From contig CP136063.1 of the NCBI GenBank assembly GCA_032622095.1, positions 145,097,950-145,161,949 of the forward strand: a stretch of 64,000 nt of DNA. Reading direction: 5' to 3'. Below the pieces are notes generated by a model. The model was not told the origin of the DNA. It made no database searches and worked only from the letters and a program-made list of their open reading frames with translations. The position numbers and the translations under genes are program-made. The DNA comes from Siphonodentalium dalli. Lineage: Eukaryota > Mollusca > Scaphopoda > Gadilida > Siphonodentaliidae. Positions 13,412 to 52,960 of the stretch are shown piece by piece; the stretch's first letter is position 1, and each line of letters opens with the position of its first letter.

Positions 13412-15766
13412 TTAGCAACCATTCGTGTGGTGACGATCACGTAATAAGTCTGCCGATGTGGGGTTTCTGATCCAGTCAATCAGGTATGTCATTGGGACAA
13501 TGTGCACATCATTAAGGCTGATTAAATAAACCAAGAATCTCCTCAGACCTTCTAAATTGGGTCTATAAACGGCGTGCGAAAACCACACGTTTCTAAAATT
13601 TAAAATGAACGGTACTCTCGTTCCATCATAATATTTGATAAAGTTCGCTTTGAGAAACTGAAATGTTTCTTCCGCTGTCTTTGGCTCCAACATGCAACCG
13701 TCCACGTAGGTGCATTCATATTTCTGTCGGAAATCTAGAACAGGTCTGACAGGGATTTCCCAGAGTGAAGGATATGCCATATTCTGACACCGAGAAGTTG
13801 AGCATCCATCGTCCAAGCCAAAGTCCAGCGTATATGGCCAAGATGGTTGATGGCTTCGGCTTGGAATCGCTTCAGTTACTGTTGAATCATATAGTATTTT
13901 TTTGTTCATAAGCACGTCATATTGCTTCCGCCCGTGTGATCTTAGATACGGGCTTCTCCAACCACGTGCTCGTTTGAATCCTAGTTTTTCGAATTCCCTG
14001 ATTTGACGACTTATATCCTTATCAAGGTTGATCGAATTTCCGTACAGTTTCGAATGAAAACCTCTCATCGCCAACTCTGACCCACCAAAATTCAATTTTT
14101 TGAGATATGCCACATCCGATGAGAACTGGGTTATAAAATATGTAGCCTTGGCGTTGCATCCATTGGGATTCGTCAAGCCTTTAATAAGTTTTTCTGCCTC
14201 CCTATAAACTATACGATTGACAGTCCCATCGAATGCTAAGACGACAAATTGCGGTACATCTTCGATTGCACTGTTTCCCGGCGGTTTCGACGTTCTGCAG
14301 AAACAATCTGGAAGGAAACAATTCGAATTTTGAACGCAGCTACCCCTGTTCACGGATATTCTTGTATCTTGTATATGATCACGAAAACTGGACGCGGTGA
14401 ACCCCCACTTACTATCCACTCTGTGTGTTTTCGACGTGGTCTCAAAACGATCGTAGACGGGGGTAACTGTGGGTATGTCCCATACGGGAGTTGTCTTGTA
14501 TCCACTGGGTGGCAATGTCTTCTCGGTGTAGGACCACCACCATGGAACGTCTTTCGGTGCAGAAGAACTCTCAGGGTTAGATGTATAATAATTCCTCGTA
14601 ATAATATCCTTGGAATACACGAAGGGTGGCTTTTCTGTAATATAGTCACTGAGCTTCGGTGTATTTACCGGTCGCTCAGTTTTGCTACTCGCCAACGCAT
14701 TCGGCCAGTTGTCCGAGTCATCTTCGTTAGAATACACGACTCTGGTGCGTTTCTTATATCTTGGTGTTTCACGAACCATTTTCACACCCCAGAGCGAGGG
14801 ATTTTGCAAATATGGATTTCGGACCCTTCCTCGATGTCGCGGAACATATCTTCTATCCGTATCCTCACCACGGTTCCCAGTCTTTTTCTTTTGTGAAGTT
14901 TTCTTCATTCCAGCCATCTTAGAAACCCGCTCTTTTATAGTTGTGGTTCTTGAAGTCCACTCTACGGGAGCGGTGAATTTGTTCAACCAATTAACATTTG
15001 AAAGTGATTTTGTTTTCATAGTCCTCGGGCTTTCATAAGACCTGGCAGGTTTCAACTCATCAGTTGGTATTGTTCGCGCTGCTACGTCTGCCTTATTTTT
15101 ATTTCCACATTGCCACGATTTAAAATGTCTTATCTTACTTAAAGGAGTTGGGGTTTTAACCCAGTCCAACATTTGTTTGGTGGTGACTATGTAGACATCA
15201 CCCATGTCCAGCAAGTCGAGGATAAACTGATTGGTTGCTTTGAGATTGCTTCGAGTATAAAACCAAGCAGCATGCATGTGCAAACCGAACGGTGTTCTAG
15301 TTCCGCGATAGTAGCTGTTAAAGTTCTCCCACAAATAGGAATACGCCTCTTCTGACGATGATGGGCGATTTATACACCCATCAACATACGAACATGGATA
15401 ACTCAATTTGTGATCTAATAACGATATGACGGGAATCTCCCAGAAACCTGTAACTGGTTTACTAGGACAAGGATATACGTGACACGAATACGGCCACCCA
15501 CCGTGATCTAACGTTAGAGGCCAAGGTGTGGGGTCAGAGAGGCCCGTTCTCGTGTATGTTAGAGAGACATCATAATCGAATCCGAGATCTTGGAGTACGC
15601 TGGGTTGGTCGTCGCCGGCCGTAATGAGGAATGGGCTGCGCCACCCGACTATCTCTTCAGCGGGCACCCCAGCAAGCGCTACTAAATTCTTTATCTGGTC
15701 AGCTGCTTCCTTCTCAAGGTGTTCGGCAGTCCTTATTTTACCGTGGGTGACACTGTGTACACCGAT
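13412..15766 (-). CDS. Chitin deacetylase-like protein, exon 2 (last exon)
   Basis: Encodes residues 116-899 of a predicted secreted polysaccharide (chitin) deacetylase-like protein. The exon opens after a clear acceptor (TTTTCATTTTAG) with IGVHSVTH, the zinc-binding HxxxH motif (His119, His123), then GWRSPFL (Arg158) and LHMHAAWF (His280), all expected of an active family-4 carbohydrate esterase. Residues about 334-590 form a basic, Ser/Thr-rich linker with no known domain and several KKR/RHRGR clusters. A second deacetylase domain follows: a CFLPDCFC linker, then LAFDGT (Asp628, but Gly629 in place of the second Asp), GFHSKLY (His686, but Tyr690 in place of the second His), an intact GWRSPYL, and Arg840 where domain 1 has the catalytic His280. 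Domain 2 is therefore probably inactive, perhaps chitin-binding or structural. No peritrophin-type chitin-binding or LDLa domain is seen. A long frame on the opposite strand (14249-14896) is a shadow. Confidence 0.92.
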   Translation of the reverse strand: MGVHSVTHGKIRTAEHLEKEAADQIKNLVALAGVPAEEIVGWRSPFLITAGDDQPSVLQDLGFDYDVSLTYTRTGLSDPTPWPLTLDHGGWPYSCHVYPCPSKPVTGFWEIPVISLLDHKLSYPCSYVDGCINRPSSSEEAYSYLWENFNSYYRGTRTPFGLHMHAAWFYTRSNLKATNQFILDLLDMGDVYIVTTKQMLDWVKTPTPLSKIRHFKSWQCGNKNKADVAARTIPTDELKPARSYESPRTMKTKSLSNVNWLNKFTAPVEWTSRTTTIKERVSKMAGMKKTSQKKKTGNRGEDTDRRYVPRHRGRVRNPYLQNPSLWGVKMVRETPRYKKRTRVVYSNEDDSDNWPNALASSKTERPVNTPKLSDYITEKPPFVYSKDIITRNYYTSNPESSSAPKDVPWWWSYTEKTLPPSGYKTTPVWDIPTVTPVYDRFETTSKTHRVDSKWGFTASSFRDHIQDTRISVNRGSCVQNSNCFLPDCFCRTSKPPGNSAIEDVPQFVVLAFDGTVNRIVYREAEKLIKGLTNPNGCNAKATYFITQFSSDVAYLKKLNFGGSELAMRGFHSKLYGNSINLDKDISRQIREFEKLGFKRARGWRSPYLRSHGRKQYDVLMNKKILYDSTVTEAIPSRSHQPSWPYTLDFGLDDGCSTSRCQNMAYPSLWEIPVRPVLDFRQKYECTYVDGCMLEPKTAEETFQFLKANFIKYYDGTRVPFILNFRNVWFSHAVYRPNLEGLRRFLVYLISLNDVHIVPMTYLIDWIRNPTSADLLRDRHHTNGC

Positions 15767-15779
15767 CTAAAATGAAAAG

Positions 15780-18107
15780 ATAATGTTATCGGCACGCCTG
15801 GTAAAGGTTAAAATAACCTATGATAAATTGTGAATATTAGGGTGTAATCAAACCAGCCAGAGACAAGATGGGCAAATATTTAAGGGGGAAAGACTTACAT
15901 AATTTGCTAAAAACAAATATACACATGCCTTATATATAGAGTAAATGACACTCTACCCGTGATATAAATCGGAAGTGTGTGATACTTTTTTCCAAATAAA
16001 ATCTGGCTTTGGTTGCACATACAGGGTTTGTTGTTAAGAAATGTTCATGAATAAATGTAAATCTTGATCCGTTAGTTCTCAATCAAAATGCTTTGTTGGG
16101 AAATCCATACATTATACACTATACTTTATTATCATGTTTATGAAGTGCCATGAATCGACCTGGCATAACATATATATATATATATATATATGGATACACA
16201 CATTCGATATTGTATCGAACGCTCTGCGTTAAATTTAAGTTTCACTTTATTTTTAGGGAAGAGGAGCGTTTGCCAAGTTAAAATAACTTAAAATACCCCG
16301 AACCCCATTGTACACCCATTGTATTAATGTGTTTACACTTGTGCTGTTGGTGTCATGGAACAGAATAGACTATAATTTCTTTTTTGCAATACACCGATAT
16401 ATGGCAGTTTCAGAGTTAATATCAACATATATATAGTTATATATCATCTAATATAATAAATACATGTTATAAAGTGAATTGCTTAACCCTTTGAACCCTG
16501 ATGCCCCACCGAGATTGACACCCTGACCCGGGGCTCCTCGTGGTATTTTCCCTTAAATTTGATAGTGTTTAAATTGTGACACAGGTCTGAACCTTTACAG
16601 GTTTGTCCCCCATGGGTCACTGATCATCATAAGAGCGAGATACTTTGCCACGCGGCAACTCCTTTCTAGGCAACTACCCTGAATTGACTGGAAAACGAAA
16701 TTATAGCTTATAGCGTCGCAATCGTAGTCCAGTGATTGCGTTTGCGATGCAGGTAATACCCTAATATGAAATTTGAGATTTAGCCAACCAGAATAATGAA
16801 CCAAAATGTCTTATTTAAGGGTAGCAACGGTTGCTAAGAAAATACCACAAATGATCGAATGACACCATTGCACTAACCATCCAGTGGTATTTATTTTTAC
16901 CTTAAAACGCATGTTTTTGTGAATTATATAGCCTATGCTATTTATGCTATGGGTAAATATTCCTACCCGATCAGGGGTGGTCTGGACAAAATTTGCAGAC
17001 ACGAGGCCCAAAAACAAAATTCCGACCACAAAGTACCCACCACCCTACTTGCAAAAAACATTTTTTTCCTCGGAAAAATCTGGGACCCACCCCCTATCCC
17101 ATACTTGACACTTTTTAATGGTTTTTAGCTTAATTTTTATTGGGATACAATCCCAAATGTATTCCTTGTTAACTCTTGTTTGCAATCCTGTTCCACTATC
17201 TATTTTACAAGTCACTAAAATTGACTAAATATATGTGCCATCCTACCATTTAGTCTTCACCATTATTATTGACTATTATTAAAAATAAATGGAGTGAAAC
17301 AATTATATCCCAATCTGCTTCAATTATATTAATATAGATACTTTATTCTGTGAAGCAAACTATGCATAAACCAAATCTAACCCCAACATGACTTTGAGCG
17401 TTTCATTGTTGTGCAGTCTAGTGTTAAAACTAGGTGAATTCCAGGTAAATTTCTTGTGTGTGAAGTGGTATTGTATTTGTGTATTGTGTTGCAATGTGGT
17501 GATTGAATCGGAGGTCAAGAGTCAGTCAGTATGCTAAAAACTGTGGTCTGCTGTCTGGAAGGGTGGGGTGGCACTACATGGGTTTAGCCCTGTGTTTACA
17601 TTTTGCATTATTGTTTGTGTAATACGCATGTCGCTCACGTACGGCTGATCGTGATACGGGGCTAAAGTCATATTATACCAATGACGTTCCATGAACATGA
17701 TAAATGAGTCAGGCCATGCCTTTATTATTAATATAAAACAACAAATTATATCGCCACTTAAAATATAACAGAATATATTAGGAAACCTTATTAAACCTAT
17801 ATCTATTATACAGGGATCACTTCGAATCATGCATCTGTCGCTGCTAAATATAACTTACTCAATAAAACCTTTGCTCATACTTACTCATATTTGAATTTTC
17901 AATCTGCCAGACAATATTCGCATGAATGCTGACCACGATATTGAGTTTTAATGAGGTAAATTGTCCAATTAAATTGTTTAACCCTGAAACAGGTTTGACA
18001 CGTTTTCATGAGCACCATGTATATAAAGATTCATGTCTCGCTGTAATCTTATTATTATAAGTGGGATATAAAATATAATTTTATTTGTAATCATGGAGTC
18101 CAACGAC
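15780..18107. other. Intronic, no gene; (TA)n tract
   Basis: Includes a (TA)n run near 16168-16192. At 16484 a TTAACCCTTTGAACCC string resembles one end of a TTAA-targeting element, but no matching inverted end was found. Nothing else is recognised. Confidence 0.5.
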
Positions 18108-18247
18108 TGATACCAACCCTACCTAGACACGATAATGATACCAAATTTATCTAGACACGATAATAACAACCCTACATAGACACGATAATGATACCAACCC
18201 TAGCTAGACACGATAATGATACCAACCCTACCTAGACACGATAATGC
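18108..18247 (+). repeat. 28-bp minisatellite, about 5 copies
   Basis: Units built from TACCAACCCTACCTAGACAC plus GATAATGA, with small changes (TAGC for TACC, a shortened second unit). The array is about 140 bp. Confidence 0.85.
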
Positions 18248-19139
18248 CGACATATTGTTGAGTTGGTGCCATATAACGATTATCCTGTGTTGAAGTAGGC
18301 CCTACACTAACGAAATAACGGAAATGTCGTTTTTTTTTTTGGAGTTTTGTATTCAGTTTTTTTAGGCAAACATACTTTATCAAACACCAATTTGGCTACA
18401 AGTTTTGTCTACCAGAATGCCTGCATTTGCACCGGTATTGGAACCTCAAAAAAAATATATACCACCCCCCCCTCATGGAGCTAAATGTGTTCTAACTGAT
18501 ATATTTATGTAGATAAGAGTTTATATAAGGTTAATAGTGGACAAAGATGAGTAAATTTCAGTGTAGGAAAACGTTTGCATTACTCATTTGTCCAGCCCCA
18601 AGATACCCACCCACCCCCGCTTTGTGTCTGGGGAAAATCGACCCCCCCCCCGACCCGATACTAGCGGCGGGCAACCATTAATTCCATGTATACACACTGG
18701 CCACCGCCTAATTATACCCTCTCTTTACTTGGAAACACCATTCTTTGCAGCTTATGGTAGCCGTAATCTATTACATCATATTGCATCACAATACTTACTG
18801 ACGGAGCCATCACCGAATCATACTTGTATACATATTAATATTTTTTTTAAATAAACAAATTTTCAACACACATATTTTAATTTCACTTTGCCCACTATTC
18901 TGATTGCATCTGGAAGCGGTATGAAAGATAACGTAAGTCAATTTAGCTTTCACTTGAAATGTCAGTTCCTGTATATCGTATGTAAATAAGTTCTTTTCAA
19001 CTTTATTTTGGGCTCAGTTGTGCTATTGAGTTATCAATACGTATTCTATAAATAGGCAGCTAAGCATATACGAGTCGTTAATATGTCACTGCATGTTTTG
19101 GATGGCCCTGGCATCGAACAAATTTCCCAACTTAGTGCA
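18248..19139. other. Intronic, nothing recognised
   Basis: AT-rich with homopolymer runs. The frame at 18588-18854 is proline-rich from poly-C runs and has no family features. Confidence 0.5.
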
Positions 19140-19645
19140 GTAGATTAACTCCAATTTTCAAGGCAATTGTTCAATTTGTGACTAAAGCATGAAACTTTGC
19201 ACATATGTACATATCCACATACTAATTGATATTAGATATGGAGCCACGCTGAAATTTCACTTTAACCCCTCTTTTATGGGGTTTTGCGAATTTAAAGAGA
19301 GTTTCGTGATTATAAAATGTAGCCATAAGTGGAAAATTTGACATTTTTTCACAAATATCTTCTAGATCAGTTTCTGCTGTATGGAACTGGTTCAGAATTG
19401 TGACTTTATTTTTGTGCATTTTTATGTTGAGTGTTACTGACATTACCATAATTATTGGAATTTTCTATCACAAACTTGACATCAAAATTGGCAAAACTTT
19501 ACTTTTCGGGTTTGGGCCATTTATTCAAGTAAATGGAACTATCTTTGATATCAAAGATGTTTATTGTTTTGATCTATCTTAAATGCGTCACATGGATGTG
19601 TTTTTAGACAAAATTACTCAAGATGGTTTCCAAAATGGCAACCAA
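19140..19645 (+). repeat. Dispersed repeat family R1, copy 1
   Basis: Contains AAAGCATGAAACTTTGCACA, ATTAGATATGGAGCCACGCT, TTTCACTTTAACCCCTCTTT and, further on, TTCTGCTGTATGGAACTGG. The same blocks recur inverted at 26330-27260 and direct at 61500-62050. No coding capacity is recognised; probably a non-autonomous element. Confidence 0.75.
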
Positions 19646-19834
19646 TTTGGTAAAAAAAAAGGTGGATTCTTTTTACATGAACATTATTCTCTGTTATTAT
19701 AACCAAATTGGTTATTGCATTGTTATGCTTAATTAATCCAATGATTACTACATGTTTCATTATCGTTGTCCCTGTACCTTCTGAGGCATGACAAATTCCT
19801 TTTAAATGATGTACTCATAGTCCTCCAATAGCAT

Positions 19835-22002
19835 TTATCGATGGTGAAATGAAGATAACACATAAAAAGCAAATAGCGGAACGATTCAATGAATACTTCT
19901 CAAAAATTGGAAACTTGACTAGTGTAAATGTCGACGAAGTCAGCACACATTACACTGATTATTTGATCAATAGAGAATCGGATGATTTAGAAATAATTCA
20001 AACAACAGAACAGGAAATAATACTCACATGCTACTCATTTAAAGTCAAAGCAAGTAAAGATGTACATGGTCTATCAAATCAATTGATGAAATAATCTATT
20101 TATGAAACAGCCAAAGCTCTTAAACATATATTTAATCAATCGTTCAAAGAAGGAGTTTTTACGAAGAAAGTGAAAATATCAAGAGTAATACCGATTTTCA
20201 AGGGTGGGCAAAAAGAAAACATTTCAAACTATCGACCTATCAGCATATTACCATGTTTTTCAAAAATACTCGAAAAAATTATGCAAAAGCGAATTGTAGA
20301 TTTCTTTGATGAACATGCACGTTTCTATAAACATCAATATGGATTAAGGAAGGGGCACTCCACCATACATCCGTTAATGCATCTTTTAAACCATGTTGTT
20401 GAACAGAATGACAAAAAACCCAAAGATTCAACCTTAGCAATATTCATTGACCTTTCAAAAGCATTCGACACAATAAGTCATGAAATCCTACTAAATAAGA
20501 TGGAACACTATGGTATTAGGGGGACTGCTAATAATTGGTATAGAGACTACCTATATGAGAGGCGAAAATATACAGATTATAGTGGAAACATTTCCAGTCT
20601 ATCCAAAGTTTCATGTGGTGTCCCTCAAGGATGAATACTCGGACCAACAATGTTTTTAATTTATGTCAACGATATGTCAGTATCCACATCCTTAAATTTA
20701 TTATCATTCGCGGATGATACAACCCTATATACATCAGGCTGTGACAAAAGCGTTGTCGAAGATAGGGTAAACTTAGAACTAAAAAATATTCACGACTGGT
20801 GTTGTTGTAATAAGCTCTCCATAAACAAAAATAAATGTAACTATATGCTAATTCATCCAGAAAATAATGATCAAAAATGGAAAGATTTGAAATTATATAT
20901 AAATACAGCTGAACTAAACAGAGTTGGGAATATATATGAAGAAACATCCTTGAAATTTGTGGGCATTAATATTGACGAGAATCTCACGTTTAAAAAGCAT
21001 ATTTCAACTGTATGCTCTAAGATGGCTCGAGCTATTTATTGTATCAACAAAGTTAAAAAGTTCTTTCCGGGTGACGCACGGCGAACTCTATATTACGCAC
21101 TTATCGACAGTCATATGGTATACGGCATTCAGGTATGGGGTCATGTGGCGACCACTAACAAGATATTTTTATTGCAAAAAAGGGCGATTAGAACAATAAC
21201 CAATGCTAGATACAACAGTCACACAGAACCAATTTTCACATTAGACCAAAAGCAACACCAAGAACAAAATTTTCAGAAAATCTCCCAGAACATTCATATT
21301 CGAATATATGGAACTCAGTTAATAAAAAACAAAAAACTAATAGGAATCGAGATAACTATAAAAACTGATGAGTGTAGAATTGATCAACCAGTATTCCAAC
21401 GAAATTGAATGCAAAAATAAATTTTTGCCATGATTGTACACACAAATGATAAAAATTATAAAAATGTTCCGAATATATTTAGTCTATTGGCTACTTACCC
21501 TAAATGCGAAAATTGTCTCACATTAAATTACCAGAGTACTACGACTTGTATCCTGCAAAATCTCGTCCAACGCATGGCTATATATACTAAGGAAATTTAA
21601 CTGTAACAGTTATAAACACAGTGTGTGAGCAAATCTTTATAAATTCCCTTAGTAAATACAGCCAAACAAACTCCAAATAGTTTAGAACGTTTGACCGTTG
21701 CATATTCATTCATATCCATTTATATCCAAACAACTAAAAATATCTGTTTATTCACTGGTATCAATATCTATAATTAAATTCAATATAAATATTAATATAA
21801 TCAGGAAACTATAGTGAAATACTTCAAGTCTTTATATAGCCATTACTGCTTGTATTCTGTCAGTCAGGGGTGCCGGGTAGACGGCCATCATTGGCCACGG
21901 CACTCCACACAATACATATACAAATTGACATGTATTATAATGTATTAATGTATAATGTATTGTATTGTGTAATAAAATATTATCCTATCCTATCCTATCC
22001 TG
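19835..22002 (+). mobile_element. 5'-truncated LINE with (TATCC)n tail
   Basis: Spans the reverse transcriptase coding region, a 3' untranslated region and the terminal TATCC repeat at 21981-22002, directly after an AATAAA. The 5' portion, including any endonuclease, is absent. Sequence style suggests the CR1/Jockey group, but clade assignment needs a tree. Confidence 0.85.
19849..21408 (+). pseudogene. LINE reverse transcriptase, two in-frame stops
   Basis: One reading frame runs from 19849 to 21408 with stops at 20092-20094 (TAA) and 20632-20634 (TGA, right after GVPQG). Motifs in order: YFSKIG; KISRVIPIFKGG; NYRPISILPCFSKILEK; FRKGHST-like LRKGHST; FIDLSKAFDTISH; SCGVPQG; the catalytic LSFADDT with FADD at 20707-20718; then FVGINID and VWGH, LLQKRAIRTI. 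The C-terminus degenerates after HTEPIF. It would reverse-transcribe its own RNA if intact, but the stops make it a pseudogene. Confidence 0.9.
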
Positions 22003-22139
22003 TAGTACGGAATATTTTGCCAAAAATGTCTTCTGGGACTCTGGCCATATTTCTGAACGGAAATGGGCAGAACGTCTAAACGGAACTGAGTGAAACCATA
22101 TTATGTGGCTACTCTCGACAATTAGCATGCAAATCAACT

Positions 22140-23770
22140 TAATATATGGTGTATGTCCAAATGGCATCCAGGGAGTGAATGTGCGGTCATAGATAAGGTG
22201 AACAGTTCTACAGGGAGTTATTGTATGGTCACGAATGTCGAAGGAGTGGCTATATGGTGATGGGTGGTGTGCCTTTGGTGATATGTATAGGTATGACTGT
22301 ATGGTCATGTGGAAGGTGAATATGTATACAAGGATTGTTTGTATGGTTAATGAAGTGGTTTATGGGTGTAATTATAGTAGCTGTATGTTCATATGTGTGT
22401 TGTTTATGTATATACAGTGACTGTGTGGCCTTGTGTGGGATATACATGTGTACATTGGGTGACTATTGTCATGGATGGGTGTATATGTATACATAGGTTG
22501 GCTGTTTGATCATGTGAGGGACTGTGTGTGTATAAATATATAGGGAGTTGTTGTATGCTTATGTGTAATATATATAGTTGTACATGGAATGACTGTACGC
22601 TCGTGATTGTTGAAGTGTATATGCATACCTGGAGTATAGCTGGATGGTCGTTGGCGGTCTGTGGGTATATATGAAGTGTCCTTGTGGTCATGGTTGTATA
22701 TGTGATATATATGCATCTCTGGCGTGGCTGTATTGTCATTGGTGGGTGTATATGGATACAGAGCGTAGCTCTATGGTCATGCGTGTGAGTATACATCGAG
22801 TGGCTGAACTCTCATGGGCGAGGTGTATATGCAAATCTGGAGTGTACGAATTGTCGTGCGGGGAATTGGTATATCCATTGGTGAGGTGTATATGGGGTAC
22901 CTGGATTGCCTCTATGGTAATGAGTGGGGTGTATATATGTATATCATGAGTGGGTATATGGTCATGGGTGTGAAGAAAGGGTATACGGGGAGTGGCTGTA
23001 TGGCCAATGATGAGGTGATGCGCGTTGTATTGTTATATCTAGAAGGTATGTATGGTCAATGATGAGGTGTCGATGTATACCTGGAGTGATTCTATAACCG
23101 GCATTGGTGGGGTGTGTATGTGCATTGTATATGTGTATTGGCTATATGGCCGTGGGTGTGGCCGATATGCATACAGGGAGTGATTGGATGCCAATGGTGA
23201 GGTGAATTGTTAAACAAGGAGTGACTGTATGACCACGAATGTTGTGGCTGAATTGTCTTGAGTGAGGAGTATATTCAAACCTGGAGTGTGTGAATGACTG
23301 GCTTTATGTGCGGGCACTGGTATATATATAAAATGGTTGTATGGCCATTGGTCAGGAGTATTTGCATACACGGAGTTACTCTACGGTTATGGTTGCAGTG
23401 TATATGTATATCTTGAGTGGATATATGTCCATAAATGTGGCAAATAATATACAGGAAGTGAGTGTGTGGCCAATGGTGAGGTGAATAGGTATACAAGATG
23501 TTACTGTACGATCACGAATGTGGTGAATATGTATACAGGAAGTAACTATATGGTCATGGGTGAAATGCAGGGGTATACATGGTGTACCTGAATGGTGACT
23601 CATGGCTGTCTAGTCATGTGTGTGGTTTATGGGTAAACCCAATTGTGGTTGTATGGTCATGGGTGAGGTGTATGTGTATAAAGGGAATGGCTACATAGTC
23701 ATTTGTGTGGTGTTTATGTATAAATAACATGATTGCATTGTCATGGGTGAGTTGTACAGTTGGACCTTTG
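22140..23770. repeat. Degenerate 42-bp minisatellite, about 1.6 kb
   Basis: Repeats on a theme of GTATACAGGGAGTG, ACTGTATGGTCATGGGTG and AGGTGTATATG, period near 42 bp, roughly 35-40 units, all diverged. Because 42 is a multiple of three, the complement reads as long His/Thr/Ile-rich frames (for example 22404-22796 and 23376-23603); I take these as by-products. It starts just after the LINE tail. Confidence 0.8.
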
Positions 23771-24349
23771 GTGGCTATCACTTTCCATAATAGCGAGTTT
23801 GCTATTTCAAACCGGTACGGGTACGCGTACGGGTAGCTTACCGTGCCGGTACACGTTTTGTAATCGCAAACTGTTTTACGGGTAGAATTCATCACATCGA
23901 CTGGTAATGTATGGTTAGCCAACTGCAACAAAAAAGCTATTATGATATAGATAGATTGCTATTCGCTTTATTTACTTAGCGTTATGGAATGCTGGAAATT
24001 TGTATTTAGATTAGATGGGATAATCAGTTGCTTTCATGAAGAACGAGGCAGCAGTTGGAAGGTGGTTGTGCTTTTCTTTCACTTATCTTGGTAACATTTA
24101 AAACAATTGGATTCTACAAGTCATAGACCGATCGAGTGTTGACTATAAATCGGTTGGAATTTTTAGACTTAGAAAATAGATTATGATAGCACAAATATAC
24201 AATTACGTTATAGTTAAATTTTCTAATCAATATTCGGTGTAAATTTTATTATTTTAGACCCAGGGTCTAACAATGTACTACGCGTACTTTCAGTCAGATA
24301 TAAGACCGAATTTGTCCCTTATTTTAGTTGGGGAATATTAAGTCATATT
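23771..24349. other. Intronic; short ACGGGTA-rich block
   Basis: 23800-23900 has GGTACGGGTACGCGTACGGG and related strings; a similar block with inverted parts is at 25965-26055. No gene seen. Confidence 0.45.
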
Positions 24350-24800
24350 AAAGATGCATAATCCGAATTAACGCTCCCAAGTTACAATTTCTTTGGCTTC
24401 GGGGGGGGGGGGGGTAAAAATATTTGATTCGAGTCGATGAACCCACCCAACAAAGCTCAGAGTGATCAGATATCGATTTTTGAAGTTTGTTATTTCTTGA
24501 AATGTGTAATTATTTGTGGCCCAGAAAAGAGTCATCAAACCGACGGTCTCGGACAAATTTGACGAAGATGGATAACTCTAAAATCAAGTGGTAATACGGC
24601 CAAATTTCGTGATAATATGGCCATATTTCGTTGAACAATATGTTGATAAATAACACGTTTTGGGAAATTTTATACCACAGTTGCTTCATTTTAGCATTAT
24701 TTTTTTGTAATTAATGGATTCTGATAACAAAATCGTATTTTGAAGAAATGTTGTTGCTGTAACTTGATGATATGGGGACCGTCTGGTCGGATTGAGTACT
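24350..24800 (+). mobile_element. TIR element family R2, copy 1
   Basis: Aligns through its length with 50607-51066: CTTTGGCTTCGGGG, ATATTTGATTCGAGTCGA, AAAGCTCAGAGTGATCAGAT, CTCTAAAATCAAGTGGTAAT, ending GTCTGGTCGGATTGAGTAC. The left end here is diverged (ATAATCCGAATTAACGCT), like the copy at 63897. No coding capacity, so a MITE-like non-autonomous element. Confidence 0.75.
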
Positions 24801-27260: not shown

Positions 27261-27899
27261 ATCTACTCCACTAACTGGAACTTTCAACAACGGACCGGTA
27301 TCAGTATATATGGATTTCCATTTTCATGAGTATAATCCGGTACTCGATGTGACTTTGGATATTGTATCGCTGTCAATCGAAGTGAAGCTAATCTAACTAA
27401 TCTCCAGTTACTGGATATATATATATATATACCCTTATTTCTTAATATACATGTTAGATTATCTAAATGACATACGCTACATGTCATATTCAGATTTAAA
27501 ACGATTGACACACAAAACTATGTTCAAAGTGCAGAAATCATTCGAATAAATTTCATGCATAGAACTGTAACAGCAGTGATTGGCTTGGAATAGACCCGTA
27601 ACACACATACATTTTGATTGTGAGGCTAATGCTCCAAATTATTAAACACAATCGGTATATTTTCTCAGCTGTTTTACAGAAGAATAGCATGCGCACAGTT
27701 TCTCAGTGTTTCGTTATCGGAATGCGTTTTTAACTAGATGTGCCACAAAAAAACACAGTAATTTTGTTTACATGGCTTTATCTTCAGTGATTTCATGTTG
27801 ATAATTACGCTCTATTTCTGAGTTAATTGTAATCGAGAGGTCAGTTTTCGACAAAGCGACACTATCTTGGCACTAGTAGGTTTTTCCCAAAAAAAAAAA
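27261..27899. other. Intronic, nothing recognised
   Basis: Contains a short (TA)n at about 27415-27430. No gene or repeat family identified. Confidence 0.45.
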
Positions 27900-27914
27900 G
27901 GACAGATTTGTTAA

Positions 27915-28190: not shown

Positions 28191-28239
28191 ATTTGGAACT
28201 TATTCCATATTCATTATTCCCTATTCTCAAAAATTTCTC

Positions 28240-29110: not shown

Positions 29111-29114
29111 TGTG

Positions 29115-35300: not shown

Positions 35301-35302
35301 AG

Positions 35303-36720: not shown

Positions 36721-36726
36721 TCAGAA

Positions 36727-40183: not shown

Positions 40184-40309
40184 TAATTCATATTTACATT
40201 TCAGGTTTTATACTCCTTTTGTTATATATCATATAATCATTGTATGCATACTGCCTATGTTACGGGTGTTTCATGCATTAAAATTATCTTATCTTATCTT
40301 ATCTTATCT

Positions 40310-42097: not shown

Positions 42098-43537
42098 ATG
42101 GAGGGTTATTAGGGTCACAATCCTAACTTCACATTTTAATTCTAACTTAACATTTTAATTCTTATATTTTAATTCTAACTTAACATTTTAATTCTAACTT
42201 AACATTTTGATTCTTATATTTTAATTCTATTTACATTCAATTTACATTCTATTTACATTCTATTTACATTCTAAAAACATTCTAGAAATATTCTAGAAAC
42301 ATTCTATTAACTCTAACTTAATCTTTTAATTCTTACTTAACCTCTTCGCTGCTAAATGATGTTATGACGTCGTGTGCTGGGCTGTTGACGTTATTGGCAT
42401 TTTCCAATGGGAAAATATAGCGGGAATGTCAAAAGAACCATAAAGTGACTCAGCTGAAAGTCTATTATTGTTCACAATCGTGGAACATCATACACTGTTT
42501 GAAACGTCGAGATACAGTTATTACGATGCACTAATCTCTGAGTTCCAGTTATGTATAATGGCCTACTTCTAGTGTGCTGAAGTAGGTCCGTAGTACCTAC
42601 GGACCATATAGCACACGGCGTGCACTTTTACGTCCGTAATAGATACGGACGTCATAGCAGCGAAGAGGTTAATATTTTAATTCTAACTTAACATTTTAAT
42701 TCTTATATTTTAATTCTAACTTAACATTTTAATTCTAACTTGATATTTTATATTTTAATTCCAACATTAGACCTTTTTGTAGTAGATTTAAAATATTAAA
42801 ATAAAACTATTAAGTAAGAATTGAAATATAAAGTTAGAGTTACAATTAAAATATAAGAATTAAAATATTAAGTAAGAATTAAAATATGAAGTTATAATTA
42901 AAATATCAAGTTAGAATTAAAATATAAGAATTAAAATGTTAAGTTATAATTAAAATTTTAAGTATGAATTAAAAGATTAAGTTAGAGCTAATAGAATGTT
43001 TCTAGAATGATTCTAGAATGCTTCTAGAGTGTTTCTAGAATGTAAATAGAATGTAAATAGAATGTAAATAGAATGTAAATAGAATGTAAATAGAATTAAA
43101 ATATAAGAATTAAAATGTTAAGTTAGAATTAAAATGTCAAGTTAGAATTAAACTATAAGAATTATAATGTTAAGTTAGAATTAAAATGTCAAGTTAGAAT
43201 TAAAATGTCAAGTTAGAATTAAACTATAAGAATTAAAATGTTAAGTTAGAATTAAAATGTCAAGTTAGAATTAAAAGATTAAGTTAGAGCTGATAGAATG
43301 TTTCTAGAATGATTCTAGAATGTTTCTAGAGTGTTTCTAGAATGTAAATAGAATGTTTTTAGAATGTAAATAGAATGTAATTAGAATGTAAATATAATGT
43401 AAATAGAATTAAAATATAAGAATAAAAATGTTAAGTTATAATTAAAATGTTAAGTTAGAATTAAACTATATAAGAATTAAAATGTTAAGTTAGAATTAAA
43501 ATGTGAAGTTAGGATTGTGACCCTAAGAACCCTCCAT
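42098..43537. mobile_element. 1.44-kb palindromic element of TTCTAACTTAACATTTTAA repeats
   Basis: The ends ATGGAGGGTTATTAGGGTCA at 42098 and its near complement ending CCCTCCAT at 43537 are inverted. The left arm is filled with TTCTAACTTAACATTTTAAT-like units and TTTACATTCTA units; the right arm carries the complements. The arms turn over near 42775-42800, so the element can fold end to end. There is no coding capacity. A second, unrelated element is nested inside the left arm. Confidence 0.8.
42341..42668. mobile_element. Nested 328-bp TTAA-flanked MITE
   Basis: Flanked by TTAA at 42337-42340 and 42669-42672. Terminal inverted repeats are CCTCTTCGCTGCTA, with TGACGTC in the subterminal region. 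Inside are small palindromes (GGTCCGTAGTACCTACGGACC-type, and CGTCCGTA with TACGGACG). TTAA target duplication is the hallmark of piggyBac-type and Kolobok-type elements by established knowledge; which one is uncertain. Confidence 0.8.
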
Positions 43538-43818
43538 AAGATTCGTCGTCGTTTTGTAAGCACGCCTATGACAAATATGACATGTCGGTGCCGTTATGCC
43601 ATTTGCTTACAAACTGAAGTGTGACTGAATTAACTTATCGATGACCACAAATGTAGGCATTCTGCTCCAAGTTGTTAATACCCCCATAATACTGAAATAT
43701 AGCACATCGATGTCTACTGATGGATAACTTCCGATTGGCATACCGTTAATGGCCAGAGCTGCATGGAACACAAGATAATTATCTTTCTTATATACACACG
43801 CATGTGCCTTTACTATTT

Positions 43819-44040
43819 ATGATGATAGCTCTGATACTTGTAGTTGGGGCATCTGGTTTTGACTTAATTGATTGCTGGAACTATAGCGCCAATGTAGCAA
43901 AACCACTGCAACACTGCCAGAAACATGTTTATAGATTAGAGAACAGGCATGTTCTACATTTATTTTACACATTATTTCAGTTTCATATCAGACTTGGAGA
44001 GTTGAATTTCAGTTTGATACCACAGATAGTGGTAAATTGA
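43819..44040 (+). CDS. Possible small secreted peptide (uncertain)
   Basis: From the ATG at 43819 the frame gives 73 codons beginning with a hydrophobic run, MMIALILVVGASG, that resembles a signal peptide, followed by DCWNYS and a CQKH segment. I do not recognise a family. A TATATA lies at 43791-43796, about 25 bases upstream. The later part looks less protein-like, and no clear splice donor was found, so it may be chance. Confidence 0.2.
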   Translation: MMIALILVVGASGFDLIDCWNYSANVAKPLQHCQKHVYRLENRHVLHLFYTLFQFHIRLGELNFSLIPQIVVN

Positions 44041-45270
44041 TATTTTATTTTACTTACTGAATTATATGTGGTTTATTTGTCTTTAGAGTGCATTATAATA
44101 TATTTACATACCAAGTGGTTATCCAACCCAGGTGGGCCAGCGCAGTTAAAAATTTCACGAAAGTTTACTTAGTATTAGAAGGAACTATATAGTAAAAAAA
44201 AATTCTGAGGCCAACCTGACCACAAGGAGCTGTACCTATTATCTTGTGTATACACTACAGGTGTTATTAAGATCATAACACATCAAAACAGTCATTATAT
44301 AGGCTAAACAGTTTGTAATTAGGTCAAAAAAGGGCAAAAGGAAAAAAATTGCAAGCACCAGTAAATACCGGAAAAACGTGTTTTCAGGAGCTGCGACCCC
44401 CCCCCCCCCCCCCCACCCCCCCCGGCCTTGTGTCGGATTTTTTTTGCGTGAGCCGCCCCCCCCCCTGATTCATTTGGCAAATAGTGTTACTTCGTGACGT
44501 CACGGAGTCCCGTTAAAAAAAAGTCATATGGAACTCCAATATGAATTTCGAGAGTCCAATATGACTTTCTCCCGGATTATCATGTGACGGCTTTTTCCCA
44601 ATCAGAAATATTGTTAGTTAAGGGATGGATAATAATAGTATGTACAAAACGAACCGATTCTTATATATATATATATATATATGTTTTATTGGGAGTTTAA
44701 AACGATGAGGTAGTGAATTAGTTTGTTTACATTATGAATCTTGGATATCTCAGATACGTGATGTACCCTATAAGTTATACACGAAATTGCAATTAGGGTC
44801 CATTCTTTCGACGAATCCTTGTGCGCGGAGTGTAATTAAAAGTGAACGCCCCAACAAATAAGGCTTATAGATGTGAATCTTATTTTGTTGACAATCAATC
44901 AATTGATAAGAATTATTTTTTTAAAGCCACAGATACCTTAATTCGAGTGGTTTAGCTTTGGTTCGTAAGTTTGCGCTAGCGTATATGGTCGTATTAGTGA
45001 CTACTAGTTTCAGTATACTGACCTGACTAATTTTCAAAAATTTTCACGACCGATATCATGAACATTGTTTATACATAATACAATCAAGAACAACGCGGGT
45101 TCGAGTCAGCCTTTAAATATGCCCCAACCTATTTGGCACCAAATTAGTCCAAATTTCAGGCGAATAAAACAGGGTAATTAATAATAGTCGTCGATTTTGT
45201 AACACAGTCACCACAACATTAGGATGAGAATAAAAATAAGCTGATTTTTAAGAAACGCGATTGAATATAA
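44041..45270. other. Intronic; homopolymer, (TA)n, no gene
   Basis: Poly-C tracts at 44396-44425 and 44455-44465, a TGACGTCA at 44495-44502 and a (TA)n run near 44662-44682. No gene seen. Confidence 0.45.
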
Positions 45271-46775
45271 ACAAACGTCGCACTACCGACGACTCGAATT
45301 CAATTCGAATTAGACTCGAGTTTAATTCTAAATTCGTCTGTTGAAACAAACGTCGCATTTAATTCAAGACGAATCTAAATGATTTCTTAAAATGGCACAA
45401 AGCGTTCATGAGGGTTTTTGTCAAAACGACTAAAATACGAAGTTATATATCAATTCTAAAACGTAAAATTTAGTGCGAAAATGTGGCTTTTGACTTCCAA
45501 GCGACGAAATTAATATTAATATTCTGAGGAGTGGAAATTATTGGTTTTAAATCGCTATTTCGTAGGTATTTGAGGTCGGACATGATTCTATAGGTGGTAT
45601 TTTGCTCTGAACTTGTCTGAAAGAAATCAGGTCCAGTTTATTTTGTATACGAAAACGTTGTGCCTTTTTAACAATAGATATAGCAAGTTGACGTCAACGC
45701 GGGATAACTCTATATTGCGTCAGTATGCCTATCTAAAACCACGTGGTAAAATAAACATGGCGAGCAGGGACGTATAGCTAGAGGGTTTCCGTTGTGGGTG
45801 GGGGCTAATATATTTGCGTAATTCAATTTGCACCCGCTTGCATGGCTGTTCCTTCACATTCCTGGATGATAGCCTATTCTGAATGGATCAGTATACTTGT
45901 GGTCACGCCAGTAGAAGAAACATTAGAGATCTGAACCTGAAAATCCGATCATAGTTTGGCACGGTGGGAGAAAAGTTTTTGAAATCTGAACATGAAAATC
46001 GCAAAAACTTATAGTACCTAGCCTGGCCTCAAGCTTTCCAAGTGTTGAAAATGTCCAACCTGACACCCCCACGAATTCGAAGGTTAGAAAATTTCCAACT
46101 AATGACCATTTAAGTTCACAATTATGAACAAAAGCATAGGAAAATAATTAGTAGTCATGAGGGACCAGGACACAAGCTTCCCGACTGATGGCCATTTCAG
46201 TCAAAATTTTGGACCAAAAGTAGGAAAATATGCAAATGTTGGTCTAAAAACAACAAATTCCCCAACAGTTCATTGTTTGAAAATAAAATTACAAGAAAAA
46301 TTTCAACATATCGTTGATGTGAAATTTGCACACGTCCATGCATATATGCACTATAGTAGCGGGTATATCCAAACGGAATAAAAATTTATTTAGAGCGTCT
46401 ACCAGCTGCGTCTACTCGCATTTAATTTGAATCAAACGTCGCACTTTCGACTCGAATTCAAATACCACCAAATTACGTCATCCTCGTTGGTGTTTTCCAG
46501 TTCCAATTGGAATTCCCTCATTAGCATATCATTATACAGCTCGCTTGCATTTCTCCGATATAAATTCGAGTCGACGGTGATGCGAACACGGATCTCAGAC
46601 GCATCGGCAATTAGATTCGTGTTGCATACACGCATTCTTCGTCGGTAGTGCGTCTACTCGCATTTATTTGAAACAAACGTCGCACTTTTGTCGACTAGAA
46701 TTCGAATAATTGAATTCGAGTCGTCGGTTACCCTTGGAACAAACGTCGCACTACCGACGACTCGAATTCAATTAG
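45271..46775 (+). mobile_element. TIR-family repeat R3, copy 1
   Basis: 45308-46730 aligns closely with 49101-50507 in the same direction (for example GACGAATCTAAAT, CAAAGCGTTCATGAGGGTTT, GAAATCAGGTCCAGTTTATT). The ends carry AACAAACGTCGCACTACCGA and its complements in several orientations (45271, 45345, 46675, 46737). Both copies hold the same short frame (46157-46381 and 49954-50187), with no known domain. Probably a non-autonomous DNA element with rearranged ends. Confidence 0.7.
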
Positions 46776-47369
46776 AACTAGAGGTCAGATTCCATGGAAT
46801 CAGATATACTTCCATGGTATCCCATTCCATGTGGGTGTTATGTGTATAGGTGTGTTCCTCCTCATGCGAATGAATATCGGTGCTTTGTGATCTGATGGTG
46901 GACATGCATTGACATTTCTAAATAAGATATATATTCCAAAGGTTTATGTCATTTGGTTCGACCTACCGTGGATGATTAATGACAGTCTATTGCATGATGG
47001 TTGTGACCAACTGAGCCACCATTCACCCCAGCCAATCAGTTCATTTTTAATCGGTAGGGATACATTTTAGAGCTAAGTATAACCTCTCCCCAGGACGCCC
47101 ATATCATATTCAACGATCACGAAATTTGGCGTGTCTGATTATATCGTAATCGACATGCAGACCAAAAGGGTGTAAAGCATATTAATGTACCATAACTATG
47201 TTATTTCGCATTTATTGGATAGTTCTTTCAGTTTCGGATTCAGTATATTTTAGTTTTAATGGCGGAGGAAAGACCGCTTGGTTAATTAATTAATTAGTAT
47301 TTCAGTGCGTCATGTATACACTATAGTCATTAACGTCTTTGTAATAGAGTTAACTGTAATCGAGAGATA
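46776..47369. other. Intronic, nothing recognised
   Basis: Begins with ATTCCATGGAATCAGATATA, a short CCATGG-rich stretch; otherwise featureless. Confidence 0.4.
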
Positions 47370-48395
47370 ACTATATCACAATCGATAATGCTAGCTGAGT
47401 GAATACCCGTCCACTCTGAAATAATGTTGTCCTTATATACTACCAAACACATGCAGTGTTCAAAATTTAAAACACTTGATTCGCGATTTGACATTTTTTC
47501 CCGTTTACGAGTTTCGGTGGAATTTGCCAAAAGCATCGACCCTCCCCGGGGCGTACGCCACCTCTCTGTTGGACAGGTTACTTTTATAGTAGAGCAGACA
47601 TACCTATAGTATATCGGTGAACATATTCATGCATTTGCCTTGCTCCTTGATAAGTCCGTTTGAATTTGCGTCATAAAGAGTGGGTTTGAATTTGAGTAAT
47701 ATATATCACCCGTTAACAACGTTACACGCTACCAGGGTTAAACCGTCCACTCTGAAACTTTGAAAAGCGTACTAATATTGAGTGTAGATACTACTAATCA
47801 CATCCACTCGTCGAAAAGTTTTTATCTCAATGTCTGATTTCGGATTAATTTTCCCAATTTGATTTTCGGTGGAATTTGCCAAATCTGAACCCACCCCGAC
47901 ACAAACACTCCGTTGAGCAGGTTGCGTTTATAGTAGAGAGGTTAAATTTTGGAGGCGTACCTACAGTAAACCGGCTTACATGCCACTGTATTAAACTCGC
48001 TCCTTCATTAGCCCGTTTGGATTTGGGGCTAAAAATAGGTTAGTGATAGACTACTTAAGTATACACATTTATGTCATATAGCGTTGTCACGAGTAAACCG
48101 TTCCATCTGGAAATTAGAAAATCGTACTGTAGATGCGCCTGAACACTAACCATCAGATGTACTCGTCAAAATTTTTTTATCTCGATGTTTGAATTCCCCT
48201 CCCCCTTTGCAATTTTCGTGGAATTTTCCTAAAGTCTCAACCCACCCCGACTCCCATTCTCCGTTGGACAGGTTACGTTTAAAGTATAGCGGTCAAACTT
48301 TTGGGACGTACAAACAGTATGTCAACGTACCTGCTACGGCATTATCTTGCCTTTTAATTAGCCGGTTTGGATTTGGCGGGAAAAATAGGTGCAAT
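47370..48395 (+). repeat. Diverged tandem triplication, about 330-bp units
   Basis: Three units (about 47370-47730, 47735-48040, 48085-48395) share, in order: ACCGTCCACTCTGAAA-like, a TACTCGTC-AAA-TTTTTATCT block, TTTCGGTGGAATTTGCCAAA, ACCCACCCCGAC, TCCGTTGGACAGGTTAC and AGCCCGTTTGGATTTGG. Divergence is high. No coding capacity is seen. Confidence 0.75.
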
Positions 48396-48539
48396 ATTTC
48401 CGTACCCCGTAATGCGGAAAGTCCATGGAAAAAAAAATTTTAGGCGATATATTCGGGTCCGGATCACTCGTCCAATTCGGAATATGCAATAACAAATTTA
48501 GAGCGCTGGACTTATAAAAAAACAAAACCTCGGTTTATA

Positions 48540-48850
48540 CATCCTGGTGTATGGTGTATGCCTATCTATGGGCGGTAACTCCACATGGAAAGCGCGGACA
48601 CCAGTTTTGATGCCCGTGGGCAGTAGTGCTTATCGAAGTGTCCATATGGTCCAAATTTGGATGCCCTGCTCCTCATAATTTCCGAGATAGTAAAATTAAT
48701 TTTTTTCTGAAAAAGGGAGATAACTCCGCGAGGAAAGCGCGGACAATATTCGTTATGCGACTAAGGCATACAACTCATTTGCCCCAACATACTTACCAAC
48801 TTTTAGTTTTCTACTGCTCATACTTTCCGAAATATAGTGATTATAAAAGT
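48540..48850 (+). repeat. Two-unit direct repeat, about 190 bp
   Basis: GGGCGGTAACTCCACATGG with GAAAGCGCGGACA (near 48568) and GGGAGATAACTCCGCGAGG with the same GAAAGCGCGGACA (near 48714). Each is followed by a CATACT/CTCCTCAT-TTTCCGA block. Such GGGAGATAACTCC repeats are, from memory, common in molluscs. Confidence 0.65.
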
Positions 48851-48860
48851 GTGGAGTATT

Positions 48861-48861
<1 letters not shown>

Positions 48862-48893
<32 letters not shown>
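48862..48893 (+). repeat. (AAT)n microsatellite
   Basis: About ten AAT/TAA triplets in a row. Confidence 0.9.
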
Positions 48894-49100
48894 GTGAAAA
48901 ATATTTTTTTTTTAAATTTCACTCCGTGGTGAAGCATTGGGCCGAACTCATGATATCTTCATTTTCTGTATCCCTTAGATGCCTACATTCCCTAGAGATT
49001 TCACGGCCCTCCTCCCATTAGTTTCTGAGTATTTTCAATTAAACAGAAAACGGCCCCAATAGAAAAACAATATACTTCCTTGGTTACACCATGGAACTAT

Positions 49101-50540
49101 AATTAGACTCGAGTTTAATTCATAATTCGTCTGTTGAAACAAACGTCGCATTTAATTCAAGACGAATCTAAATAATTTCTTAAAATGGCATAAAGCGTTC
49201 ATGAGGGTTTTGGTCAAAACGGCTAAAATATGAAGTTATATATAAATTCTAAAACGTAAAATTTAGTGAGAAAATATGGCTTTTGACTTCCAAGCGACGA
49301 AATTAATGTTAATATTCCGAGGAGTGGAAATTATTGGATTTATATCGCTATTTCGTAGGTATTTGACACCTATTTTAGGTTGGACATGATTCTTTAGGTG
49401 GTATTTTGCTCTGAACTTGTCTGAAAGAAATCAGGTCCAGTTTATTTGTATACGAAAACGTTGTACCTTTGTAAGAATTTAATAGCAAGTTGAGGTCAAC
49501 GCGGTATAACACGATATTGCGTCAGTATGCCTATCTAACACCACGTGGTAAAATAAACATGGCGGGCAGGGACGTATAGCTAGAGGATCTACGTTGGCTA
49601 ATAAATTTGCGTAATTCAATTTGCACCCCACTTGGCTGTTCCTTCACATGCCTGGATGATAGCCTATTCTGAATGGATCAGTAGACTTGTGATCATGCAT
49701 TGGGCGGACCATGGTTCTGCCAGTAGAAGAAAAATTAGAGATCTGAACCTGAAAATCCGATCATAGTTGGGCACGGTGGGAGAAAAGTCTGAACATGAAA
49801 ACCGCAAAAACCTATAGCATTAGACTGGCCTCATGCTTTCCAAGTGTTCGAAATTTCCAACCTGACACCCCACGAAGGTTGGAAAATTTCCAACTGATGA
49901 CCATTTAAGTTCATAATTTTGAACAAAAGCTAGGAAAAATAATTAGCAGTTTTTTGGCTGGCCACGGGGGTCATGAGGGACCAGGACAAGGCTTCCCGAC
50001 TGATGGCCATTTCAGTCAAAATGTTGGACAAAAAGTAGGAAAATATGCAAATGTTAGTCTAAAAGCAACAAATTCACCAATAATTCATTGTTGGAAAATC
50101 AAATTACAAGAACAATTTCAACCCATCGTTGATGTGAAATTTGCACACGTCCATGCATATAGTAGCGGGTATATCCAAACGGAATAAATATTTATTTAGT
50201 GCGTCTACTCGCATTTAATTTGAAACAAACGTCGCACTTTCGTCGACTCGAAATCAAATACCACCAAATTACGTCATGCTCGTTGGTTCATTAGCATATC
50301 ATTATGCAGCTCGTTTGCATTTCTCCGATATAAATTCGAGTCGACGGTGATGCGACGTTTGTTTCAAACACAGATCTCAGACGCATCAGCAATTAAATTC
50401 GTGTTGACCACACGCATTCTTCGTCGGTAGTGCGTCTACTCACATTTATTTGAAATAAACGTCGACTTTTGTCGACTCCAATTCAAATAATTGAATTCGA
50501 GTCGTCGGTAGTGCGACGTTTGTTCCAAGGGTTAGCCACT
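49101..50540 (+). mobile_element. TIR-family repeat R3, copy 2
   Basis: Second copy of the 1.4-kb repeat at 45.3-46.7 kb, with small indels. Its right end (50491-50524) reads TTGAATTCGAGTCGTCGGTA then GTGCGACGTTTGTT, the exact complement of the left end of copy 1 at 45271-45305. The two copies thus lie inside an outer inverted-repeat pair. Confidence 0.7.
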
Positions 50541-50606
50541 TAATTTAAAGCATTGTTGCACATTTGAAGCCTGAAATTACAATGTCATACAAGAACAATT
50601 AAAGGA

Positions 50607-51066
50607 ACTCAATCCGATCAGACGCTCCCAAATTACTATTTCTTTGGCTTCGGGGGTAAACAAATATTTGATTCGAGTCGAGGAACCCACACATCAAAGC
50701 TCAGAGTGATCAGATATCGATTTTTGAAGTTTGTTATTTCTCGATATGTATAATAATATGTGACCTAGAAACACGTGGTCAAACGGAGGGTCTCGGACTA
50801 AATTGCGATGAAAATGGATAACTCTAAAATCAAGTGGTAATACGGTCAAATTACGTGATACTTTAGTGATAATACGTCCATATTTTGTTGAACAAAATGT
50901 TGATAAATAACAAGTTTTGGGAAATTTGATACCATATATAGTTGACAATGGTTAGCATTATTTTGTTGCAGTAAATCGATTCTGATAATAAAGCTTATTT
51001 TGAAGAAATGTTGTTGTTGTTGTTGTTGTATCTTGGTGGTATGGGGGCCGTCTGATCGGATTGAGT
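50607..51066 (+). mobile_element. TIR element family R2, copy 2, intact ends
   Basis: 460 bp with perfect 18-bp terminal inverted repeats, ACTCAATCCGATCAGACG (50607-50624) and its complement (51049-51066). The interior matches 24350-24800. It contains a TTG microsatellite at about 51010-51029. Non-autonomous; superfamily undetermined. Confidence 0.8.
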
Positions 51067-52552
51067 ACCTTTAAGACTCTTTCCCAAATTGTATTTGTTT
51101 TAAACATATATAAACATGCGTCTGATACGATAAACAAGTACACGAGCTGCGGAAATTCAGCATGCACATTCAGAAATCAGTTTATCGCCGACAGACAACG
51201 ATTTACTGCCCCGAACACACAGCGCGATTTAGTTGCACTAACAAAATGTTGAAAGATCTAACACACTTGAACTTTTCTTTACAAGAAATTTTATTCGATG
51301 AAAATTATTGCAAATCATAGTTGTGCCAGCCAATGTATACGCGGGCCTGTTTTAGTATGGTGGGGCTGGTGACATGTTTTTGTAGTTGCAATATATCACA
51401 ATTGTAGTTGAACGGTCTTGAACACCGAGACAGTCTATTGGTATGATTTACTATGACAATTAATCTATAGCCAGTTGTTACCAGACTTGTTTGGGGTGGT
51501 GATTGTTGGTAATTTATAGCCATTTCATGACAAATCCCTTTACATTTGTTTTATTTATATTTAACGTATGACTGGATCAACCCTATATATTACGGACATG
51601 GATCGTTTAAATATCCACGTGATATCCAGTGATAAGGGATCAGATATGTCGTTATATACACCACGTATCGATCTACCTGCTACGTGAATTTTTCAGTTGT
51701 TTAAATTTCTTTCGGACATATAAGTGAAACAAACGTTCTTTGTTTTTACCATATCAGGAATCGACTAACAATGAATGCAAGTCTCTATATGTGGTATATG
51801 AAGTCTCTATGTTGTATATGAAGTCTCTGTGTGGTATATGAACTCTCTATGTGGTATATGAAGTCTTTGCAAGAGTATCTAACATATTTATCGACATATT
51901 CTAACGTATGTCAGACGTCAAACAGCCACGTGGTGGTTTCAGATGAAGTCTTCATGCTCGCTTTTGTCACAACCCGAGTTGGTTCTGGTGACCACAATTA
52001 GGCCTATAGATTCGTTATCTACTTTTATACGGAGTTTATAAGCCACGTAAAGTTAAGACTTATTCAACTCAGAGAATTCATCAGAAGTTGGGTCCGGACT
52101 TTTCTCTAGCATGAAATACAAAAACACTAATATGCTAACAGCCGTTGTCTAACTTTTGTACTAAAAATTAAAAACAGCTGAGAATGTTTTATCATTTGAG
52201 TTCTTGTTGATATATATATTTATGATGTAGATCGGTATTTCGTAGATTTATCTTATCCATCCTTGAAGGTTGGAATGAGCCATGTCCGTTGAAGCAACGA
52301 ATTACAGAAGAACCGAACTTAGGACTTAATATATCGATCTATTCTCATAACTATTGCTATAACTTCATTATTTCAGTTGTCTTGGTATCAAATTAAAACA
52401 CTTATAATGGCACATATTTTCGACCAGAAGGGTGTTAGTTCAAATCTGAACAACATAGAAGTCATAATTTAAAAAAAACGGGGGGTCAACAGAAATTAGA
52501 TTTTTCATGCCACCGGATCACAATCTCCTGGTCTTGTGTACGGACATTCTCG
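51067..52552. other. Intronic, no gene; 21-bp tandem repeat
   Basis: 51778-51866 holds about four units of AAGTCTCTATGTGGTATATG. Otherwise no feature is recognised. This is the 5'-most part of the deacetylase intron. Confidence 0.5.
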
Positions 52553-52615
52553 TTATAGACCCCCCCCCCCCTTTTTTTTTAAATACGTGTTTGAGAATTT
52601 GACTACTAATCTTAC

Positions 52616-52960
52616 CTCGAATCCCATTCTGTGCAATTCCCGGACATCGTCATAGTCTGTGTAATCATGGGATATATACAGTGATGCCAGGATGGGGCAT
52701 CCATTTGGATTCCTTCGAGAAGAATCGAATAGTTGACGGTAGTACTCTGCAACTTGTTTCGTAACAGCGTCATCGAACGCGAAATAAACGATCTGCGGCA
52801 TATCGTCCCTGTGCATGGGTGCGTTGCTTGTTGGGCAAAAGCATTGGGGAAGCTTACAGTTCACTTCTTGCTTGCAGTGAGAGCTCATCGCGGATATGTT
52901 ATCCGCCATCAATAAGCATGCTGCAATGATCCATATTAAAATATCCACCGATTTCTCCAT
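52616..52960 (-). CDS. Chitin deacetylase-like protein, exon 1 (start)
   Basis: Encodes residues 1-115. The ATG at 52958-52960 is chosen because it has A at -3 and G at +4 and is followed at once by a signal peptide-like run (MEKSVDILIWIIAACLLMA). A longer frame to 53017 would need TTG. After the signal come four cysteines spaced C-x5-C-x4-C-x-C ending KLPQCFCPTS, the linker usual in front of chitin deacetylase domains. The domain starts PQIVYFAFDDAV with the metal/catalytic pair Asp63-Asp64, then RRNPNGC and a strand with LYISHDYT. The exon ends at GAG|GTAAGA. A poly-G/poly-A tract lies 40 bases into the intron. The protein should be secreted and act on chitin, removing acetyl groups. Domain 1 motifs are complete only when joined to exon 2. 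Confidence 0.9.

Follow-up and report, generated by a model that had tools for sequence, protein, structure and literature searches.

A two-exon gene on the minus strand of the 64 kb window (the whole stretch of DNA that was analysed) encodes a protein of 899 residues that reads as a secreted two-domain chitin deacetylase, in which domain 1 would be active and domain 2 would be a pseudoenzyme that grips chitin or matrix as a putative binding module. We give this combined reading an even chance of being right. At the level of sequence, domain 1 carries a full CE4 active site, whereas domain 2, a diverged copy, lacks most of the zinc-binding and catalytic residues. The gene joins exon 1 (52960-52616) to exon 2 (15766-13412), and the chain runs from a signal-like start through domain 1 (residues 26-338) and a basic linker (339-590) to domain 2 (591-899).

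52616..52960, minus strand: coding part of exon 1, residues 1-115, with the signal-like start (1-25), the Cys-rich motif C29-C42 and motif 1, AFDD
15767..52615, minus strand: intron of 36,849 bases, GTAAGA...TTTTAG, phase 0, holding two sets of reverse transcriptase open reading frames on the plus strand
15098..15766, minus strand: exon 2, rest of domain 1, residues 116-338, with HSVTH, GWRSPFL and HMHAAWF
14342..15097, minus strand: exon 2, linker, residues 339-590, no Cys, pI 10.0
13415..14341, minus strand: exon 2, domain 2, degenerate CE4/NodB, residues 591-899; Asp628 and Arg719 kept; Gly629, Arg840 and motif 2 (683-690) altered
13412..13414, minus strand: stop codon TAA at the end of exon 2
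13341..13346, minus strand: AATAAA, likely polyadenylation signal, read by eye

The 338 residues of domain 1, including the signal, were searched against the sequences of solved chains at E values up to 0.01. Two distinct sequences were matched, both over nearly the full length of the domain: the silkworm enzymes BmCDA8 (5z34, E 2.2e-59) and BmCDA1 (5zns, E 7.8e-52). These Bombyx mori proteins (CDA8, 5z34; CDA1, 5zns and 5znt) belong by sequence to the same CE4 family (PMC6463723) and share the N-terminal Cys motif and the catalytic motifs. In silkworm CDA1 the matched text of that source names Asp205 as the base, Asp206, His261 and His265 as the zinc ligands and Arg306 as the residue that steadies the base (PMC6463723). 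A four-sequence alignment of both domains with the two insect enzymes places all six corresponding residues in domain 1, i.e. the base Asp, the zinc Asp-His-His set, the Arg and the motif 5 His. They are Asp63 and Asp64 in AFDD, His119 and His123 in HSVTH, Arg158 in GWRSPFL and His280 in HMHAAWF, exactly the positions that the sequence-only reading had given. Counted from the ATG, the two motif 1 codons lie at 52774-52772 (Asp63) and 52771-52769 (Asp64). The first 25 residues resemble a signal peptide, the hydropathy profile reaching 2.95 over 13 residues. Against Pfam PF01522 (Polysacc_deac_1) domain 1 scores 22.1 bits, just under the cut-off of 23.1, whereas the silkworm stretches used as controls pass it with 31.8 and 34.2 bits; domain 1 is therefore a diverged member of the family. 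It is probably an active, secreted, zinc-dependent CE4 chitin deacetylase, as its residues and start suggest.

Domain 2 was not matched by any Pfam family at E values up to 10, and it was thus recognised here only through comparison with its closest relatives. A search with its 309 residues against the sequences of solved chains (E up to 1) found the same two distinct sequences, again nearly full length, with E 1e-38 for silkworm CDA8 and 2.7e-37 for CDA1. Between the two domains, identity is 35% by BLAST (109/308, E 9e-60) and 34.6% in the four-sequence alignment. The four-point sums (124.7 vs 132.0 and 136.3) group domains 1 and 2 together among these four sequences, a weak hint that the duplication took place outside the insect lineage. 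Much of the framework has been kept: domain 2 retains 46 of the 70 columns common to domain 1 and both insect enzymes, and every one of the nine cysteines common to the other three sequences. The signatures Cys-x5-Cys-x4-Cys-x-Cys, GWRSPYL, WEIPV and YVDGC, which had been reported for this domain, are all present in the translation. The cysteine motif had been described as a linker, and in this respect the description has to be changed, as the motif opens each domain; 5z34 carries a near-identical version, C-x4-C-x4-C-x-C. AlphaFold2 modelled domain 2 with low confidence, the pLDDT being 43.8 (together with the window's domain 1 pieces) and 35.3 (alone). Foldseek with the better of these low-confidence models put the three insect chains on top, 5z34 first (E 1e-6 to 4.5e-6, TM 0.42-0.43, rmsd 10-11). 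The model is too weak for placing side chains or for fixing the register of motif 2.

At the active site of domain 2 the base Asp628 and Arg719 are retained, while Gly629 stands at the position of the zinc Asp and Arg840 at that of the motif 5 His, as had been claimed. Which residues stand at the two zinc His positions of motif 2 depends on the alignment. They are His686 and Tyr690 according to BLAST, hhalign and pairwise MAFFT, Arg683 and Ser687 when MAFFT includes both insect enzymes or phmmer is run against 5z34, and Arg683 and His686 in phmmer against 5zns. The claimed replacement of the second His by Tyr accordingly holds in the first register, and the other two put Ser687 or His686 there. 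Over about 30 residues the gapped alignment scores 45 before gap costs and the ungapped one 19; two three-residue gaps at 11+1 (28 in all) bring the gapped score to 17, level with the ungapped one. When only the five motif residues are scored against the three other sequences, HSKLY reaches 10.0 and RGFHS -3.0. In all three registers at least one zinc His is lost and at most one of the three zinc ligands is left, and the active-site residues kept number two of six in the four-sequence alignment and three of six in the other two registers. Domain 2 therefore falls short of the full zinc triad and catalytic residues of an active CE4 enzyme. In the passages available from a review of the family, the inactive CE4 proteins classed as 'unknown' are said to lack the zinc His residues (PMC5855634), and on this ground domain 2 is probably inactive, i.e. 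a probable pseudoenzyme. The enzyme and pseudoenzyme on one chain that the sequence-only reading had proposed fit these counts (six of six against two or three of six active-site residues), the inactivity of the second member being a prediction.

The linker between the domains, described earlier as basic and some 250 residues long, has 252 residues, a pI of 10.0 and no Cys. The slightly longer stretch 335-590 (256 residues) has a net charge of +21, the linker lies on the disordered side of the charge-hydropathy line, and no Pfam family was found in it above the cut-off. Many insect deacetylases carry a separate chitin-binding domain. In the reading that we favour, domain 1 would deacetylate extracellular chitin, and domain 2, itself non-catalytic, would still grip chitin, chitosan or some other component of the matrix and so serve as an inbuilt binding module, standing in for such a separate domain. 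Among the roles open to an inactive copy that still folds, binding to chitin or matrix would come most naturally. With its pI and charge, the linker would be flexible and might attach to acidic matrix; domain 1 might in that case reach chains around its point of anchorage, or the linker itself might hold on to the matrix. A 'chitin-anchored' enzyme, as had been suggested, is a reasonable putative description. The 'processive' enzyme of the same suggestion was set aside, as nothing in the analysis spoke for or against it. In favour of our reading, the frame of domain 2 is open and lies in the same exon as most of domain 1.

The shared exon could also be the only thing that preserves domain 2, if it is under relaxed constraint, has lost its function and is decaying beside an active partner. 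Consistent with decay, domain 2 is further from the two insect enzymes (28.8 and 31.3% identity in the four-sequence alignment) than domain 1 is (36.7 and 34.9%). Its losses are also not concentrated at catalytic sites: 2 of 6 active-site columns are kept vs 44 of the 64 other shared columns (Fisher p 0.17), so that a preferential loss of active-site residues is unsupported and there is room for general drift. The losses include a run before motif 2, where domain 1 has S97, H98, Y100, T101, Y103, V106 and E108. Against decay stand the frame, open over the full length of the domain without a stop, the complete set of shared cysteines (9/9) and the retained two thirds of the shared columns (46/70). 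We regard decay as unlikely, though still credible.

Alternatively, the protein may be a precursor that is cleaved within the basic linker to yield two products, an active deacetylase and a structural protein of the matrix. The linker contains KK, KKK, RR and KKR sites and lies on the disordered side by charge-hydropathy, and domain 2 alone is basic (pI 9.0). However, dibasic pairs are expected in a linker so rich in Lys and Arg, and the furin motif R-x-[KR]-R was not found anywhere in the protein; we consider cleavage of this kind improbable. The chance is slimmer still that domain 2 catalyses something through moved or substitute residues. For this speak the retained base Asp628 and Arg719 and the one His left in two of the three registers. 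The same review notes that MurNAc deacetylases do without the metal Asp (PMC5855634, from the matched passages), so the loss of that Asp alone would not decide for inactivity. Against residual catalysis stand the zinc ligands, no more than one of three being left in any register, and the Arg in place of the motif 5 His.

The solved silkworm catalytic regions have one intact NodB domain, whereas the protein described here has two, one of them degenerate, and a long basic linker. A comparable arrangement is listed for the abalone Haliotis laevigata, whose shell protein idb_6290, 'similar to chitin deacetylase', is given a signal peptide and NodB (2x) and is assigned to both nacre and prism (PMC6003135, Table 2). 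The likeness is one of annotation, and the tandem architecture can in that sense be called already known (PMC6003135). Chitin or polysaccharide deacetylases are also listed in the matched parts of shell studies of a limpet, a land snail, a grove snail and a freshwater mussel, and a pearl mussel transcriptome lists two. Because of the abalone protein in nacre and prism (PMC6003135) and the deacetylases in other gastropod and freshwater mussel shells, a shell function of the two-domain protein is plausible by analogy. We would extend this only tentatively, and with more doubt than confidence, to the idea that across shell-building animals a deacetylase has retained a second, catalytically dead version of its domain, which serves as a module for binding the chitin or mineral matrix, such that one chain both modifies and holds shell chitin.

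There are precedents for CE4 proteins without activity. The microsporidian ECU11_0510 is reported to be inactive (PMC5855634), and two bacterial CE4 proteins, BA0330 and BA0331, are described as stabilising the cell wall without deacetylase activity (PMC4505593). ECU11_0510 and BA0150 are reported or presumed inactive and are listed without metal in the passages matched (PMC5855634, PMC10967932), as is predicted for domain 2, whereas BA0330 is listed with zinc (PMC5855634) and is therefore an imperfect precedent. All of these come from a microsporidian and a bacterium, unlike the animal domain 2, and the matched passages mention no active partner domain on the same chain as ECU11_0510, BA0150 or BA0330/BA0331. 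Among the literature matches listed (titles and abstract openings, with few subscription journals), no degenerate second deacetylase domain was described. Searches for relatives in viral contigs gave 1 stretch that matched the pattern with domain 2 as the query and 29 with the four-sequence alignment, and two alignments gave 47 and 46 in prokaryote genome contigs; none of these was confirmed. As these collections hold viruses, bacteria and archaea, absence from them says little about animals. If domain 2 is inactive but conserved, chitin modification would have a clear case of enzyme and pseudoenzyme paired on a single chain. The gene would then also help to show how deacetylases might stay on chitin when they lack a separate chitin-binding domain, and would offer a concrete protein for testing the role of chitin deacetylation in shell or cuticle. 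It appears to be a modest, testable example of an enzyme that carries a retired copy of itself.

A GT-AG intron of 36.8 kb separates the two exons, which join in phase 0. The start ATG is at 52960, with an in-frame stop upstream of it; the donor reads GAG/GTAAGA after 52616 and the acceptor TTTTCATTTTAG/ATC before 15766. The junction reads E-I-G-V-H-S and matches, without gaps, E-I-A-[LV]-H-S of the insect enzymes. It is very improbable that the gene model is wrong, with exons from different genes or misjoined by the assembly: the join is read from genomic sequence alone and spans a 36.8 kb intron that contains transposon open reading frames, but the splice sites are consensus and match in phase, the junction restores a conserved stretch ungapped, and tblastn over the window, with the linker and each domain as queries, turned up no other part of a deacetylase (matches outside the gene had E >=0.64). 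The window has no N runs, and an assembly misjoin was rejected on these grounds. The exon 2 frame is open for 784 codons without a stop; the number expected by chance is about 2e-17, by a simple estimate from the window's frequency of stop triplets, and a chance open reading frame is ruled out for this run. On the opposite strand, a 218-codon open frame (14240-14896, plus strand) overlaps the linker and the first part of domain 2 in antisense and is probably a by-product of the coding strand. The intron interrupts domain 1 just 5' of motif 2, and the equivalent site in domain 2 is unbroken within exon 2. Either the intron was lost in the copy, or the copy arose by a processed route, or it is older than the gain of the intron in domain 1.

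Two retrotransposon-like elements lie within the intron on the plus strand, antisense to the gene (20095-21408 and 36817-40183). Both encode reverse transcriptase in broken frames, the second also an endonuclease-like domain that scores below the Pfam cut-off, and we infer that both are LINEs. The intron also holds AT-rich nested tandem repeats at 42783-43516, whose units include ones of 19, 52, 71 and 302 bases. Over the whole window ARAGORN gave no matches, and neither did Rfam at gathering scores. Two open reading frames at 4600-5091 (minus strand) and 6569-7021 (plus strand) encode peptides that are near-identical by eye over about 95 residues; they had no Pfam match at E 0.01 and probably belong to a mobile element that is present twice. 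A tandem repeat at 54480-57224, some 1.5 kb upstream of the gene's ATG, consists of about 89 copies of a 31-base unit with 88% matches. A 152-codon open frame (54891-55349) runs through this repeat and is probably not a gene.
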